DNA of 64,000 nucleotides from Acidimicrobiaceae bacterium (GTDB lineage Bacteria; Actinomycetota; Acidimicrobiia; Acidimicrobiales; RAAP-2): the NCBI GenBank assembly GCA_003170315.1, contig PNAH01000025.1:34063-98062 (forward strand), in the 5' to 3' direction. Of the stretch, positions 4,322 through 51,417 are shown in pieces. The first letter of the stretch is position 1. Each line of letters starts with the position of its first letter. The position numbers were made by a program, and so were the translations under genes. The notes beneath the pieces were generated by a model. That model did not search any database and was not told the origin of the DNA. It saw only the letters and a program-made list of their open reading frames with translations.

Positions 4322-4410
4322 AGCTTCAGGCAAGGAATCACGATCTGGCACCCACGTGGTGATTGGTTCCCGACCAGTCAATCGTGGTGTCCGCCAGATA
4401 CGGTGTGATT

Positions 4411-27367: not shown

Positions 27368-27415
27368 GCACCCCCAACGGGATTCGAACCCATGCCGCCA
27401 CCTTGAAAGGGGTGG
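27368..27415 (-). repeat. tRNA-Glu 3'-half fragment, putative att site 1 (most diverged)
   Basis: Copy of the 3' half of tRNA-Glu, from the discriminator to the anticodon stem (GCACCCCCAACGGGATTCGA and on to GGGGTGG). It differs from the intact gene at 51345 by one substitution in the T-arm (CCATGCC for CCGTGCC) and one extra G. The 5' half of a tRNA is missing, so it is not a functional gene. Its left flank (ATAACGTGTC) resembles that of att site 2. Confidence 0.85.
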
Positions 27416-30354: not shown

Positions 30355-30438
30355 TATTGGCGCTGGCGTTGCATCGATTTCGCACTCTTGAGGCGATCAG
30401 AAGAGCGGTAGAAATACATCTTTATTGGGAATAACGTC

Positions 30439-30485
30439 GCACCCCCAACGGGATTCGAACCCGTGCCGCCACCTTGAAAGGTTGG
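30439..30485 (-). repeat. tRNA-Glu 3'-half fragment, putative att site 2
   Basis: 43 bases from GCACCCCC through GAAAGG are identical to the 3' half of the intact tRNA-Glu, and the match extends to 30485 with one mismatch in the anticodon stem (GGTTGG for GGGTGG). Right flank shares GAAAGTrCTGATCAAC with the flank of fragment 3 at a similar distance. No tRNA 5' half is present. Confidence 0.9.
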
Positions 30486-46360: not shown

Positions 46361-46408
46361 AGCACCCCCAACGGGATTCGAACCCGTGCCGCCACCTTGA
46401 AAGGGTGG
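46361..46408 (-). repeat. tRNA-Glu 3'-half fragment, putative att site 3
   Basis: 48 bases (AGCACCCCCAACGG to GGGTGG) are identical to 51343-51390 of the intact tRNA-Glu, from just past its 3' end to the far side of the anticodon stem. The identity stops sharply there (ACCAAG here, TGTCC in the gene). It marks the left border of the cassette carrying the toxin-like genes. Confidence 0.93.
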
Positions 46409-46488
46409 ACCAAGTGATATTTGGAATCCTGTGAAAGTGCTGATCAACTTGATGTTCTAATGACTCGTGTCGTCGTAGATTTCGCTTT

Positions 46489-46505
46489 GGGCATTCTACG
46501 GGCAT
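46489..46505. repeat. GGGCAT pair at 11-bp period (left end of cassette)
   Basis: GGGCAT-tctac-GGGCAT followed by TAAC, about 80 bases right of att fragment 3. Same arrangement as at 30566. Confidence 0.7.
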
Positions 46506-46567
46506 TAACACTATCCACTGCGTCCGCGACTTCTCCCGGAACCAAATTGGCGAGCGAAATGTGGTGC

Positions 46568-47476
46568 TCATTGACCTTCGGTATGTTGCTCCAAGTTAAT
46601 GTCAATACGGTTGCTATCGCGATAGTCCGCAGCGCAGACCTCTCGGTCAGTTCCACAGGATCGAACTGAGCATGGAACGCCTATGTCGTTGCCGACGGAT
46701 TCGACAACGTCGCCGATGAGCGCCCGAATGGTTTCGGCATCGATACCGGTGTGCGGCGTAATCAATACCAACTCCAACTTGGTCGGATTGGAGATGCTGT
46801 CAGTGATGACACGAAACTGGACGCCACGCAATGACTCTTCGGCGTCGATGACGGCACGCTCCAACGCCGGAATCATCTCGTCGTCCACTACCGTCGGAAG
46901 CGCCGGACGGTCTGCGCGATGCCCCAGTTCTTGGCCAAACTCGATCTGATCTTCACGGCTAGCGAATGCCGAAATGACATCACGCCCAACTAGGACGCCT
47001 TTGTCGAGCGGGATTTGGATACGAAGGTCAACTAACCATGCCCAATCGTCGGGATCAGATTTCCTTTCTTGCTCAGCAGTTTGGGCATTGGTCAAGTAGT
47101 TCTTCAGATTCGGAGCGGTTACGGCGTAGTAGTACAAGAATTGTGTGCGGCTCCTAATGCGCTGGATCTCGCCTGCCTTGAAGTGCTTCGAGCCGTTGAA
47201 CACGGGCGACGCGTGAATGAAGGGGATGTTCAACTTCTGAACGTCGCATGTTTGGTCGCGGATAATGAAAAACGGAGGCTCAGGTTCTGAGCCGACGCCA
47301 CCAACCTCAAGTGACCTCGGAGGATTGGGAAACACATGGTCCGTGGCCCAGCTCGATGCAACTACACCGGCTCGCGCAACATAAGCGGTCAAAGGGTTGA
47401 GTAGCAGGTGGCCCTGTTCAAAACGACCGCAAGCGGCAACCAAATCGGAATCGAATGGCAGAACGCTGCGCAGCAC
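46568..47476 (-). CDS. Hypothetical protein with QTCD motif, third gene of TIGR04255/HTH operon
   Basis: 302 residues. No established family is recognised. The most distinctive stretch is FFIIRDQTCDVQ (residues 69-80), similar to the SQTCD motif seen in some uncharacterised bacterial proteins, and a basic-aromatic stretch RSRTQFLYYYAV. A central region is rich in acidic residues (EQERKSDPDDWAW). There are no membrane segments or signal peptide. It begins two bases after the stop of the HTH gene, so it is the last gene of a tightly packed operon. It could be the toxin/effector component, but this is inference from position only. Confidence 0.7.
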   Translation of the reverse strand: MLRSVLPFDSDLVAACGRFEQGHLLLNPLTAYVARAGVVASSWATDHVFPNPPRSLEVGGVGSEPEPPFFIIRDQTCDVQKLNIPFIHASPVFNGSKHFKAGEIQRIRSRTQFLYYYAVTAPNLKNYLTNAQTAEQERKSDPDDWAWLVDLRIQIPLDKGVLVGRDVISAFASREDQIEFGQELGHRADRPALPTVVDDEMIPALERAVIDAEESLRGVQFRVITDSISNPTKLELVLITPHTGIDAETIRALIGDVVESVGNDIGVPCSVRSCGTDREVCAADYRDSNRIDINLEQHTEGQ

Positions 47477-47478
47477 GA

Positions 47479-48207
47479 CTACCGACCCTCGTCCAGCGTC
47501 TCCGGCTCGTCGTCATTCTCGAAGCGGACAGAACGCTCCCCCCGACGAGGACCGGAGAGCAGTTGATCTAGCTCGTGAGCGACGGAACCGATGTCGCCCG
47601 AGAGGATCAGTTCAGCGCGCGACGGCGTTTTCTCGGCAAACCATTCTTGAGCCCCTCGCAATCCGAAGACCTTGACAGCAACGCCCGTCACGCCAAAAAT
47701 GCGATCCAGGCCACGGCGCGATGGGGGCCTTGGCACCGTCGTTCCTTTTGCCCAAGCAAAAAGACTGGCCCTGCTTACTCCAGCAGCGTCGCCGATTTCT
47801 TCTGCTGTAGCACCTAGCACAATGCGCGCCTCATATAAACGTCGCGCGATGACTCCGGTCTCGTGAAGAGTTTCTGTGGCTGCCGGGAGAGCCGACGGTC
47901 GAAGAAAATGATCGCGGGTCAAGGTAAAGACAAAGACTGGTTGTTGCAGCGTTAGACCGGTTGCAATCAAGTACTCAGATTGAGGTGGTCGAACTACTTC
48001 AGCAGCCGTCGCCTTCAGTCCAAGAGCCCAATGAATGAGGGACCCACTCTCCGGCCACTCGAACTCACTCGTTTCAATGCGGCGCAAGTCAACGTAAGTT
48101 GGAACAGGAAAGCCGATCTTCTGCTCGTAACTGTCCTCTTCGTCGACAGACGTGGTTTGGTCCGGACTCACAAGAGTTGCAACACTGCTTAGAGAACGCA
48201 TTGTCAC
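47479..48207 (-). CDS. HTH protein with Xre/ParS (MbcA)-like antitoxin architecture
   Basis: 242 residues. The N-terminal 115 residues are unfamiliar, with an aromatic-acidic pattern (SEFEWPESGSLIHWALGL). Residues 120-165 form an HTH (ARRLYEARIVLGATAEEIGD, then AGVSRASLFAWAKGTTVPRP). Residues 165-217 (RGAQEWFAEKTPSRAELILSG, then SVAHELDQLL) have the pattern of the toxin-binding C-terminal part of Xre/ParS/MbcA antitoxins, where a WL...G-xP-L-x-L segment precedes the terminal helix. It overlaps the TIGR04255 gene by 4 bp upstream and is 2 bp from the QTCD gene downstream. It could repress the operon via the direct repeats ahead of the first gene. Confidence 0.78.
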   Translation of the reverse strand: MTMRSLSSVATLVSPDQTTSVDEEDSYEQKIGFPVPTYVDLRRIETSEFEWPESGSLIHWALGLKATAAEVVRPPQSEYLIATGLTLQQPVFVFTLTRDHFLRPSALPAATETLHETGVIARRLYEARIVLGATAEEIGDAAGVSRASLFAWAKGTTVPRPPSRRGLDRIFGVTGVAVKVFGLRGAQEWFAEKTPSRAELILSGDIGSVAHELDQLLSGPRRGERSVRFENDDEPETLDEGR

Positions 48208-48959
48208 TTGCCTACGCGCAACTTTTCGAAGTACTCCGAGGTGAGGCAGCCGATGAAGACTTGATCCGCCTTGGCATGGAATGATTCATAAACCTTGCGC
48301 ACACTCGAACCGTCGTAAGCGCCCTTCACCTCTCGGAAAAGGTCGGTGTCGATGATGTAGTGACTGTTCAAGGGCGGTGCGGTTGAATATCCGTGCCGGA
48401 GAAGACAAGTCGCATCACCATCGAAGGAAAAGATGACTCGTTGCTCGATTGTCGTAATCTCAGACCCAATATCGGGATGCAGAATCGGTCCCAAAAGTTC
48501 ATCTCGAACAAAACCATTCCACGATGCTTCGACACCCTCTATTGAATCGAGCTCGTCGATATATCGCAAACCAACACGTTGTTCCGTGGCAGGTTGAACG
48601 AGTTCCTCGACTGCGCCCAAAAGTCTCTCAAGTTGAGCGCGGAAATTGCTCCAGTCGAGGTAGCGAGTGACCTCTAGAGCGACTGAACTCTCTAGAACCA
48701 CGATTTTCGCATCATCGGAACTCAGCGACCAACCGCCTTCTGCGGAATCCGCGACGGTTACCATCCCCGCAGGACTGGCCGTGATCTGACGAACATTCGC
48801 TTGTTCAATGACGGAGAACTCGTCTCCAACCTGTTTGGCGAGACGCGTGACGAACCCCGCTTCGGCCACCTCTGCATGACGTTCGAAGCGAACCTGGGCC
48901 ACCACGAGTTTCACCGGAGCGTTTGCCAGGATGCCCTTCATTTTTTTGGTCGTCGCCAT
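48204..48959 (-). CDS. TIGR04255 family protein
   Basis: 251 residues. The order of motifs is that of the sporadically distributed TIGR04255 family: NAPVKLVVAQVRFERHAEV near the N-terminus, then GGWSLSSDDAKIVVLESSVALEVTRY (residues about 75-100), WSNFRAQLERLLGAVEEL and RVGLRYIDELDS, ending with the HYIIDTDLF and VKGAYDGSSVRKVYESFHAKADQVFIGCLT segments. Its function is not established. AGGAG lies six bases before the ATG at 48959. It leads an operon with the HTH and QTCD-motif genes, on the mobile cassette nearest the intact tRNA-Glu. Confidence 0.87.
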   Translation of the reverse strand: MATTKKMKGILANAPVKLVVAQVRFERHAEVAEAGFVTRLAKQVGDEFSVIEQANVRQITASPAGMVTVADSAEGGWSLSSDDAKIVVLESSVALEVTRYLDWSNFRAQLERLLGAVEELVQPATEQRVGLRYIDELDSIEGVEASWNGFVRDELLGPILHPDIGSEITTIEQRVIFSFDGDATCLLRHGYSTAPPLNSHYIIDTDLFREVKGAYDGSSVRKVYESFHAKADQVFIGCLTSEYFEKLRVGK

Positions 48960-48972
48960 CTAATCTCCTAAA

Positions 48973-48991
48973 CTGGACTCGTTCTGGACTC
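48973..48991. promoter_or_regulatory. Direct repeat operator candidate for the TIGR04255 operon
   Basis: CTGGACTC occurs at 48973 and again at 48984, 11 bases apart, just upstream of the TIGR04255 ATG. On the coding strand these are GAGTCCAG repeats between a TACGAT-like -10 and the ribosome site, a usual location for an autoregulatory HTH operator. Confidence 0.55.
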
Positions 48992-49123: not shown

Positions 49124-49150
49124 ATGCCCATATACGCCCGTGGTATGCCC
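49124..49150. repeat. Inverted-orientation GGGCAT triplet
   Basis: ATGCCC-atat-ACGCCC-gtggt-ATGCCC, i.e. three GGGCAT-like units on the minus strand with 10- and 11-base periods. It lies inside the cassette, about 105 bases before the PIN-domain gene, and may be an old cassette end. Confidence 0.55.
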
Positions 49151-49254
49151 AAACTTAATCTTCAGAGCCGACTGAGTCTTCGTGCCAAAGGTCTAATTCA
49201 GGGAGACACGTCTACCATTTGATTCACTCGAGAACGTGTGGGACGGTCATCAAA

Positions 49255-50736
49255 ATGAAGATTCTCGTCGACACAAATGTCTTCATTGCGGCGGAGGACA
49301 TTTCGCGAGACAGCGTTCACGTCAATGCCGAACTCGCAACGGAGTTTGTATCGCTTTGCAGACGGGTTGGTGTCGAACTGTTTGTTCATCCAGCGACGCG
49401 CGACGACATCCGACGCACCGACGACCAAGACCTGAGACGTGCGTCGGAGATGAAACTTCGACAGTGGGGAATGCTCCGAGAATCGCCGACGCCTTTCGAT
49501 CTAGCCGCGCGAGCCGGATACACTCGACCGCTTTCAGAAAATGACCAATCTGATCTGCAACTTCTTACAGCTCTTGAGTCGCGCTCAGTCGATTTGTTGG
49601 TAACGGAGGATCGGGGGCTACTGCGTCGAGCCGCTCGTGCTGGCCTCGAAACGAGGGCAATCCGCCTGTTGGGGTCCATCGACTATTTGAAGCAACTGTT
49701 CGGCGAACTTGTTACGCCCCCGGCAGTCGAATCGGTTCTGGCCTACGAGATTTCACCGGATGAAGGAATTCTGTCATCCGTTCGGGATGAATACACGACA
49801 GCTGGCGATTCATTTGACGCGTGGTTCGACAAGGTTCGCGGTGAGCACCGTGAGTGTCGAGTGATTCGAACACCGTCCGGTCCGATTCAAGGACTTGCCA
49901 TCTACAAAACGGAAGTCGATCATCCCTTTGGTATCCAAGGTAAGACTCTCAAAATATGCACTTTCAAAATTGCGCCCGATGCTGTAGGTGCGAAGCGCGG
50001 TGAACTTCTGTTGAAGGCGACGCTGCAATATGCAAACGCAACAGAAATGGACGCAATCTACGTAACGCTCTTCGAGCGTCACACGGGGCTCGCCAACCTT
50101 CTTGAGCGATTCGGATTCGCCCAACTCGAGGAACGTTCTTCGCGAGGAGAGATCGTCTACGTCAAATCCATGCGACCGGACGAATTTGAGGAAGAACTGA
50201 GCCCTCTCGACTTTCATATTAAATTCGGTCCGCCTGCACTAAAAGTCCGCCGAGCATTCGTCGTTCCCATACAACCGGAGTATCACGACATTCTCTTTCC
50301 GGAGGCCGCCATCAGGCCCTCGATGTTCGGGCCCGAGCCATCAGGGAACGCAATCCTGAAAGCGTATTTGTGTCGGTCACCAACCACTCTGCTCCGAGCT
50401 GGCGACGCGCTTCTTTTCTATCGTTCACATGATTTGAGTGCGGTGACTGCGATTGGTGTTGTCGAGTCGGCAGAACGCATTTTCGAACCTACCGCCGTAC
50501 GCGAGCGAGTCGGATTTCGAACGGTATATCCCGATAGTGAGATACGGGCAATGTTCTCTCGTGGGCCTTTTGTACTGACCATCCTCTTTCGCCAGGACAG
50601 ATTGGTTAATCCTGTATGGGGGATCAATGAACTGAAACATCGTGGTGTAGTGCGATCGGCACCTCAGTCGATTGTGCAGGTTACTGACAATGGAGCGATG
50701 GAATGGGTAAGGGATCAACTCGAAGGACAGCCCTGA
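49255..50736 (+). CDS. Three-domain PIN - GNAT acetyltransferase - PUA/EVE-like protein (putative toxin)
   Basis: 493 residues from the ATG at 49255. Residues 1-145 are a PIN ribonuclease-like domain: MKILVDTNVF with D6, and SVDLLVTEDRGLLRRAARAG with E118 and D119 as the metal-site acids. Residues 155-310 are a GNAT-type acetyltransferase (ELLLKATLQYANATEMDAIYV, NLLERFGFAQLEER). Residues 325-493 look like a PUA/EVE-like module (RAGDALLFYRSHDLSAVTAI, GVVESAERIF, GVVRSAPQSIVQV). This would join RNA cutting, acyl transfer and modified-base recognition in one chain. Operon with the ASCH gene. Catalysis is inferred from motifs. Confidence 0.8.
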   Translation: MKILVDTNVFIAAEDISRDSVHVNAELATEFVSLCRRVGVELFVHPATRDDIRRTDDQDLRRASEMKLRQWGMLRESPTPFDLAARAGYTRPLSENDQSDLQLLTALESRSVDLLVTEDRGLLRRAARAGLETRAIRLLGSIDYLKQLFGELVTPPAVESVLAYEISPDEGILSSVRDEYTTAGDSFDAWFDKVRGEHRECRVIRTPSGPIQGLAIYKTEVDHPFGIQGKTLKICTFKIAPDAVGAKRGELLLKATLQYANATEMDAIYVTLFERHTGLANLLERFGFAQLEERSSRGEIVYVKSMRPDEFEEELSPLDFHIKFGPPALKVRRAFVVPIQPEYHDILFPEAAIRPSMFGPEPSGNAILKAYLCRSPTTLLRAGDALLFYRSHDLSAVTAIGVVESAERIFEPTAVRERVGFRTVYPDSEIRAMFSRGPFVLTILFRQDRLVNPVWGINELKHRGVVRSAPQSIVQVTDNGAMEWVRDQLEGQP

Positions 50737-51107
50737 TGTCTATTAGACCCGAGTACGTGGAAGCGATTATTTCGGGCGCGAAAACCGTTGAGTTCAGGAA
50801 GCAGCGACTTGCCCCAGACGTTGAGACTGTGGTCATTTACGCGACATCGCCAATTAAGGCGGTCGTGGGAGAATTTGAAATTACGTCGCAGGTTTCTAAG
50901 TCACCAGCGGGTCTGTGGCAGGAGTTCAAACTGGTCTCCGGCATCGACCGGCGACGTTTTTTCGAATATTTTCGTGGACGATCCAGCGGTGTCGGAATCG
51001 TGATTGGAAATGTGACTGCCTACGCTCCCCAGAAGCGACTGGAGGACATAGCTCCAGGATCACGTCCGCCGCAAAGTTTTCGATATCTTGAGGATTCGGC
51101 GGCGTAG
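50703..51107 (+). CDS. ASCH-domain (PUA-like) protein
   Basis: 134 residues. The ASCH pattern RTALMSIRPEYVEAIISGAKTVEFRKQ is complete: the SIRPEY-x5-I-x-G-x-KTVEFR motif is the RNA/nucleotide-binding entrance, followed by VETVVIYATSPIKAVVGEFEI and GIVIGNVTAYAPQKRLED. Two starts are possible: ATG 50703 (GGAG seven bases before, 34-base overlap with the PIN gene) or ATG 50736 (1-base TGATG overlap). The first keeps the whole ALMSIRPEY strand and is preferred. It could neutralise or assist the three-domain protein. Confidence 0.88.
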   Translation: MGKGSTRRTALMSIRPEYVEAIISGAKTVEFRKQRLAPDVETVVIYATSPIKAVVGEFEITSQVSKSPAGLWQEFKLVSGIDRRRFFEYFRGRSSGVGIVIGNVTAYAPQKRLEDIAPGSRPPQSFRYLEDSAA

Positions 51108-51161: not shown

Positions 51162-51232
51162 GCAGAGTTGAGGCCTAAACCATTGACCCGTAAGGATTCT
51201 CCGGCCGCTTGAATCAATTTCGAGTCAGTTTT

Positions 51233-51260
51233 GGGCATTGAATGGGCATCAGTTGGGCAT
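51233..51260. repeat. Triple GGGCAT array at 11-bp period beside the intact tRNA-Glu
   Basis: GGGCAT-tgaat-GGGCAT-cagtt-GGGCAT, followed by TAAC, lies 85 bases from the 3' end of the tRNA. Three hexamers with one helical turn between them are the form expected of integrase arm-type binding sites. Confidence 0.75.
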
Positions 51261-51344
51261 TAACTGCTCCATTTCGGAGAAAATATCGCAATTTCGTGGC
51301 GTCTGCCCAATTGCAGAAATGAGCCATCACCAGGAATTATGAAG

Positions 51345-51417
51345 CACCCCCAACGGGATTCGAACCCGTGCCGCCACCTTGAAAGGGTGGTGTCCTAGGC
51401 CGCTAGACGATGGGGGC
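51345..51417 (-). tRNA. tRNA-Glu (anticodon TTC)
   Basis: 73 bases fold as a complete cloverleaf. The acceptor 5' strand GCCCCCA pairs with TGGGGGT (closing G-T), discriminator G; the anticodon stem is CCACC/GGTGG around CTTTCAA, giving anticodon TTC (Glu); the T-arm is CGGGTTCGAATCCCG. CCA is not encoded. The 3' half of this gene is the anchor for the fragments at 27368, 30439 and 46361. Confidence 0.97.

Follow-up and report, generated by a model that had tools for sequence, protein, structure and literature searches.

The window, that is, the whole stretch of 64,000 nucleotides of DNA that was analysed, carries a compact operon of three genes, called T-H-Q here. T is the TIGR04255 gene, H is the gene with an HTH and an MbcA/Xre-like antitoxin half, and Q is the gene with a QTCD motif. 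T-H-Q is a real, widespread, and apparently undescribed mobile unit with antitoxin-like regulation. A conflict function is likely. There is about an even chance that it is a mobile, self-regulated, three-component module of the toxin-antitoxin type, which would most likely serve phage defence and/or the maintenance of the element that carries it. An earlier sequence-only reading of the window had proposed an undescribed system, and no description of T-H-Q was found in the databases, libraries, and papers searched. TIGR04255 and the neighbouring PDC-M11 genes are also unmentioned in the open literature that was searched, subscription papers and preprints being outside that search. The genes of the operon are as follows.

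48204-48959, minus strand: T, 251 aa, ATG start; first gene of the operon, member of TIGR04255
47479-48207, minus strand: H, 242 aa, GTG start; variable N-terminal half and a C-terminal half with an Xre-like HTH and an MbcA/ParS-like part
46568-47476, minus strand: Q, 302 aa, GTG start; QTCD protein, third gene, no family

The tight packing described in the sequence-only reading was confirmed for all three ORFs, with an overlap of 4 bp between T and H and a gap of 2 bp between H and Q. The first gene is indeed a TIGR04255 member. T matches the NCBIfam model ("sporadTIGR04255") over positions 2-251 of 252 (E 8.9e-35, 120.7 bits against a cut-off of 30). NCBIfam names this family without a function or partner genes, whereas here T heads a recurrent three-gene operon.

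Do the three genes belong together in other genomes? In 397 Actinomycetota genomes, four distant relatives of Q were found, which by BLAST are 23-27% identical to the Q of the window. In three of the four, the retrieved sequence contains T, H, and Q in this order; in the fourth, extra flanking sequence completed the set. Among 84,980 genomes scanned, 19 Q loci were found, in Actinomycetota, Candidatus Dormiibacterota, Candidatus Eremiobacterota, and a MAG labelled Clostridiales. The order T-H-Q was found in all 18 loci having upstream sequence, and the 19th ends at a contig edge. When both types of Q are counted (the QTCD type in five and the HPC type in five of the 397 genomes), all 10 Q genomes fall among the 31 T genomes (hypergeometric P 1.9e-12). 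The sequence-only reading had staked the unit on such co-occurrence, and the neighbourhood search with TIGR04255 found H and Q together with it in unrelated genomes. In 22 loci, the pairwise distances of T, H, and Q are correlated (Mantel r 0.79-0.84, 0/5000 permutations), and the T-H overlap is conserved. The mean pairwise identity is 0.26 for T, the highest of the three, 0.23 for Q, and 0.18 for H. As far as the dN/dS values of 0.06-0.17 among the mycobacterial copies tell, purifying selection is acting on all three genes. The recurrence of T-H-Q is far above chance, with the gene order, the 4-bp overlap, and an upstream candidate operator repeat (see below) found again in distant genomes.

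The same question was asked from the side of T. I inspected 30 TIGR04255 loci of the 397-genome sample. The third gene has QTCD or a similar variant (SHAC, SRTC, SHDC, or HPC) in 16 of them, where SHDC and HPC genes were put in the Q family by position, motif, and weak profile similarity. An HTH gene lies between T and the third gene in 15 of these 16 loci. The remaining loci have a HEPN-like third gene (L032 and L051), other small partners, or T alone, and about half of the sampled TIGR04255 genes are solitary or head other operons. TIGR04255 loci often lack Q, while Q loci have T; the dependence is thus one-sided, of Q on T.

T-H-Q is found in diverse mobile settings. Nine of ten TIGR04255-bearing plasmids carry it, in Alpha- and Gammaproteobacteria, Cyanobacteriota, and Actinomycetota, and both conjugative and mobilisable plasmids are among the carriers. 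All three genes are present on the eight plasmids inspected, with the Q motif (L/V/A)(T/S)Q(T/S)CD. On the ninth, from R. etli IE4771, BLAST found Q at the same distance, and on the tenth, from Rhizobium CB3060, TIGR04255 has other partners. A tblastn search of the plasmids gave no match with the mycobacterial Q and six matches with the cyanobacterial Q. Likewise, a scan of viral contigs gave no match with the QTCD alignment A1 and three loci with the cyanobacterial Q, two of which (L114 and L115) bear the full operon. By eye, the large ORFs beside T-H-Q on L114 and L115 look like tail genes. Among INPHARED phages, tblastn gave no match with the mycobacterial T and the cyanobacterial Q, and two Acinetobacter records with the T of L114. 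In addition, T-H-Q lies in near-identical 12.5-kb stretches of Mycobacteroides franklinii, a Mycobacterium MAG, and Mycolicibacterium vanbaalenii. This mycobacterial element has a tyrosine integrase and begins at a tRNA-Pro gene. The near identity of these sequences points to recent transfer, unless assembly contamination explains one of the copies.

In the window, the operon lies in a cassette of 4.98 kb beside a tRNA-Glu gene. This setting had been noticed in the sequence-only reading, and each end of the cassette was found to bear 48 bp of the tRNA-Glu 3′ end, as a perfect direct repeat (100% identity, spacing 4982). The features of the cassette other than T-H-Q are as follows.

46361-46408, plus strand: left boundary, attachment-site duplicate; perfect 48-bp copy of the tRNA-Glu 3′ end
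46486-46509, plus strand: candidate recombinase arm site TTTGGGCATTCTACGGGCATTAAC near the left end; repeated motif
49219-50736, plus strand: PDC-M11A (PIN/GNAT fusion), first gene of the divergent pair; PADLOC E 4.4e-159
50703-51107, plus strand: PDC-M11B (ASCH domain), second gene; PADLOC E 1.3e-45, Pfam ASCH E 1.6e-4
51230-51264, plus strand: candidate recombinase arm sites TTTGGGCATTGAATGGGCATCAGTTGGGCATTAAC near the right end; repeated motif
51343-51390, plus strand: right boundary; the same 48 bp, being the 3′ end of the intact tRNA-Glu gene (51344-51417, minus strand)

T-H-Q and PDC-M11 are the sole recognisable cargo. The back-to-back PIN/GNAT/ASCH neighbour of the sequence-only reading turned out to be PDC-M11A/B, which is a separate candidate defence system according to PADLOC. 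The arm-site pattern occurs eight times in the window against 0.33 expected. The motif TTTGGGCATNNNANGGGCAT lies near the cassette ends, and its close form is confined to this tRNA-Glu array genome-wide; this location and this restriction to the array fit recombinase arm sites. Two further att copies are present at about 27368 and 30438, and thus several tRNA-Glu cassettes are arrayed in tandem here. No integrase was found in the cassette; the PF00589 matches of the genome lie on other contigs (C16, C31, and C35). In a sister species, a cassette of 5.06 kb has its att and arm sites arranged in the same way but carries different cargo. Since the cassette has no integrase and the sister cassette shares its layout, the array is probably mobilised in trans. 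When the cassette was scanned for promoters and terminators, there was no excess over chance.

The region upstream of T was analysed for regulatory sequences. No palindromic operator is conserved there, which led on to a test for direct repeats. In the window, one such repeat was found.

48970-48991, minus strand: candidate operator GAGTCCAGAAC GAGTCCAGTTT; tandem direct repeat with an 11-bp period, whose end lies about 11 bp ahead of the start codon of T

Pairs of direct repeats with 6 or more identical bp and a spacing of 11-12 bp precede T in 22 of 34 loci, as compared with 11 of 105 control genes (P 1.5e-9, where the spacing hypothesis was drawn from the same 34 loci and some of the loci are interrelated). 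The other 12 T-H-Q loci have no detectable repeat. The spacing of 11-12 bp corresponds to one helical turn, and there is no excess at other spacings. TIGR04255 genes without H-Q have such a repeat in 1 of 13 cases. The repeat sequence varies by locus (TTCAC/GTGAA, GTGCAT, GAGTCC), as does H, and this joint variation fits binding by H. The tandem direct repeats are a candidate operator, which would support self-regulation of the operon.

The C-terminal half of H had been said to look like an antitoxin. This is supported by the profile of the H family, which matches M. tuberculosis MbcA (6fkg_C) with an E value of 3.3e-7 and is colinear with it over the HTH and the toxin-binding half (MbcA 17-106). 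PF20432 (Xre-like-HTH) is matched by 8 of 14 family members (best 6.6e-6), and PF09722 is not among the families matched. The H of the window alone gives weak matches to other HTH families (PF13560, E 2e-4), below the Pfam cut-offs. Thus, H appears to bear an antitoxin half of the MbcA/Xre type. Its N-terminal half is highly variable and unlike known families.

Q proved as unfamiliar as the sequence-only reading had supposed. It has the QTCD motif and matches no Pfam, NCBIfam, or PADLOC family, with no Pfam match at E values up to 1, and its relatives have no RES match. QTCD (residues 74-77 in the A2 row) is invariant in 15 aligned Q sequences, and the other invariant residues (D-L-R, K, F, and R) all come after it. 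The AlphaFold model is of moderate quality (pLDDT 74.8, pTM 0.59). The top PDB match of the model in Foldseek is MazF (4mzm_B, prob 0.98, E 0.05, TMt 0.61), and the top eight fold matches include three MazF entries and one CcdB. The structure prediction that had been suggested gave a MazF/CcdB hint, although its E value and pLDDT make it a weak one. In HHalign, the QTCD-type Q has no significant similarity to PemK/MazF (P 0.2), and the HPC-type Q has a weak one (P 0.0027). Q does not match PF02452 (PemK/MazF), the catalytic residues of MazF are not visibly retained, and a PDB sequence search with the Q profile gave nothing meaningful. The position of Q at the end of the operon, its link to an antitoxin-type H, and the MazF/CcdB fold hint lead me to read it, with moderate confidence, as the toxin.

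T has invariant RxGLRY and DxD columns. Its AlphaFold model is of good quality (pLDDT 83.8), but the fold matches give no clear assignment: the model has a 3Di match to AdoMetDC/prozyme in the PDB with an E value of 3e-5 and a TM of only 0.3, and matches an unnamed viral protein with an E value of 3e-8 and a TM of 0.52-0.63. T has no Pfam match, SecB included, and SecB is absent from the top 50 fold matches. A PDB sequence search with the T profile gave nothing meaningful. Since T heads operons with differing third genes and can also stand alone, it is likelier to be a sensor, an adaptor, or a chaperone-like component than a toxin.

How may the three proteins work together? I infer their activities, the trigger, and the identity of the cell-poisoning protein from the features described above. 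By binding to the paired direct repeats ahead of T, which are spaced by one helical turn, H would repress the operon, and its MbcA/Xre-like C-terminal half would keep the effector Q inactive. Q would be the toxin, with a predicted MazF/CcdB-like barrel that contains the invariant QTCD and, further along, the Asp, Arg, and Lys residues; an alpha/beta domain would come after the barrel. T would set the stability or the state of the H-Q complex as a sensor or a chaperone. Upon a trigger, T may free Q and would thereby be a counterpart of the TAC chaperone, for example that of CmdTAC.

The sequence-only reading had called T-H-Q a self-regulated conflict system. The candidate operator and the mobile setting speak for this, but enrichment in defence islands was not found. 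The flanks of T-H-Q include matches to a Type ISP restriction enzyme, GajA-like, and TIR/ThsB-like proteins, and yet PADLOC families are not enriched in them (44 families against 82 at control loci). This bears on the possibility that T-H-Q is a dedicated anti-phage system and not a strict toxin-antitoxin module, where T senses the invader, Q acts on the nucleic acid of the invader or the host, and H is merely a regulator. The occurrence on viral contigs L114 and L115, on the integrase-bearing mycobacterial element, and on plasmids would suit such a system, as would the cassette common to T-H-Q and PDC-M11 and the conserved operator-like repeat. However, defence genes in the flanks are no commoner than in the control, and the C-terminal half of H matches the toxin-binding half of MbcA, beyond the HTH. 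I consider this alternative unlikely. At the other extreme, T-H-Q may be an addiction module that stabilises plasmids, integrative elements, and the tRNA cassette without any phage defence. Conjugative and mobilisable plasmids do carry it, and integrase-less cassettes would gain from addiction, but several chromosomal loci (part of L011-L022) have no recognisable element in the flanks examined, and PDC-M11, which shares the cassette with T-H-Q, is a candidate for defence. Hardly any credence can be given to addiction alone.

The roles of the proteins could also be reversed, with T as the toxin or enzyme and H and Q together as the antitoxin or regulatory part. T is the best conserved of the three and has the invariant polar motifs mentioned above. 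On the other hand, T is apparently alone, without H and Q, in mycobacterial genomes (L033-L035 and L044), which is unexpected for an unneutralised toxin. Moreover, T is common to operons with different third genes, HEPN-like ones included, which suggests a common sensor or adaptor. This reversal is quite improbable. Little more can be said for a small-molecule sensing or metabolic operon that has its own regulator, is mobile for other reasons, and plays no role in conflict. The AdoMetDC/prozyme match of T could hint at ligand binding; no enzyme or transporter domain of Pfam was found. The sporadic distribution, the repeated presence on mobile elements, and the antitoxin-type regulator are at odds with such an operon, and no metabolic gene family is common to many loci. 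I regard it as very improbable.

The three-component toxin-antitoxin-type module remains the reading that I prefer for T-H-Q, and a broader view of TIGR04255 can be tentatively added to it. Possibly, though this is rather doubtful, TIGR04255 is a general sensor or adaptor that reads the trigger and heads modular, pan-bacterial immune or addiction operons with exchangeable downstream parts, QTCD being a new class of toxin. The exchangeable parts would be an HTH-antitoxin with a QTCD effector, an HTH with an HPC-type effector, a HEPN-like third gene, and others. The present analysis places TIGR04255, which is sporadic and had no assigned role, in a context that points towards function, along with two protein families missing from Pfam, NCBIfam, and PADLOC. 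If T is a trigger sensor with exchangeable effectors, T-H-Q would be a second architecture of tripartite toxin-antitoxin immunity beside the SecB-type TAC.

T-H-Q shares features with several known systems. PDC-M11, which lies back to back with it in the same cassette, has unrelated proteins and is absent from the 25 families listed around other T-H-Q loci. The MazF/PemK and CcdB toxins provide the best PDB fold matches of the Q model. MazF/PemK has a similar strand order, and a "V-x-K-x-x-L" segment was aligned with Q by HHalign. In contrast, Q has no significant sequence similarity to these toxins, is much longer, and has other conserved residues (QTCD, DLR, and K). Membership in the MazF/PemK family was rejected because of the lack of a PF02452 match and the HHalign P value of the QTCD-type Q.

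The RES-Xre and MbcT-MbcA systems resemble T-H-Q in the C-terminal half of H, whose HTH and toxin-binding region are colinear with MbcA. The promoter repeats of T-H-Q also recall the autoregulation of Xre-RES at an imperfect repeat (PMC12204516). The differences are that Q is not a RES toxin, that H has an extra variable N-terminal half, that the candidate operator is a direct repeat with a period of 11-12 bp, and that a third gene is always present. T-H-Q was not assigned to these systems, since Q and its relatives have no RES match in Pfam.

The TAC systems (CmdTAC and the M. tuberculosis TAC) are likewise three-gene operons with a toxin, an antitoxin, and a third component, roles that are predicted for T-H-Q. 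However, T is not SecB-like by Pfam or by its top fold matches, and Q has no match to an ADP-ribosyltransferase or to HigB/MqsR. A SecB-type TAC was rejected, as T has no SecB match. In CmdTAC, the third component senses a phage protein and releases the toxin (PMC11618068). By analogy, T-H-Q would work most like a tripartite toxin-antitoxin module, and CmdTAC is the closest mechanistic model for a third component that senses phage.

The 3′ end of the tRNA-Glu gene is duplicated in the window, and the copies form a tandem array:

window 27368-27411, tRNA-Glu 3′-end duplicate
window 30438-30485, tRNA-Glu 3′-end duplicate
window 46361-46408, tRNA-Glu 3′-end duplicate
window 51343-51390, tRNA-Glu 3′-end duplicate

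These four duplicates delimit three cassettes, all of which share the arm-like sites TTTGGGCATNNNANGGGCAT (candidate recombinase sites). No integrase was found within the array. The cassettes are candidate integrative elements mobilised in trans. An extra arm-like site (49134-49153, minus strand, 1 mismatch) is intergenic, lying between the two divergent operons of the cassette that carries T-H-Q (the TIGR04255, HTH/antitoxin-like and QTCD genes). Similar cassettes are also present in sister species, where the ORF types were assigned by eye and not by profile:

L149 (genome G430, contig C24) 27-5132, 5.06-kb tRNA-Glu cassette, arm sites matching, Fic-like ORF
L150 (genome G421, contig C29) 4750-6889, 2.1-kb tRNA-Glu cassette, HipA-like ORF

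T-H-Q is also carried by a tRNA-Pro integrative element with a tyrosine integrase (L023-L027, from about 282); its copies in Mycobacteroides franklinii, Mycolicibacterium vanbaalenii, and a Mycobacterium MAG are 99.9-100% identical across 12.5 kb. In three mycobacterial loci (L021, L023, and L028), the first-ATG start of T (near 4344-4398) was probably placed too early, since the candidate operator repeats sit directly past this ATG and the next candidate start, an ATG in the same frame about 48 bases downstream, is a better fit.

TIGR04255 also occurs with other partners. In L032 and L051, it leads an operon of another kind, whose further genes encode a protein of 174-186 aa and a HEPN-like one of 126-127 aa (for L051, PF05168 E 0.05), and this may be a second conflict operon. 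On a Rhizobium sp. CB3060 plasmid (L156, 141-5123), a multiubiquitin/ThiF/DUF6527 gene cluster is followed a short way on by a TIGR04255 gene, beside which two unnamed partner genes replace H and Q. In L031, L057, L058, and L059, TIGR04255 leads operons with an unnamed W- and G-motif-rich protein ('DGGVQ.EW'); two genes further on, L059 also encodes an antitoxin of the Xre/MbcA/ParS type (PF09722 E 6e-10).
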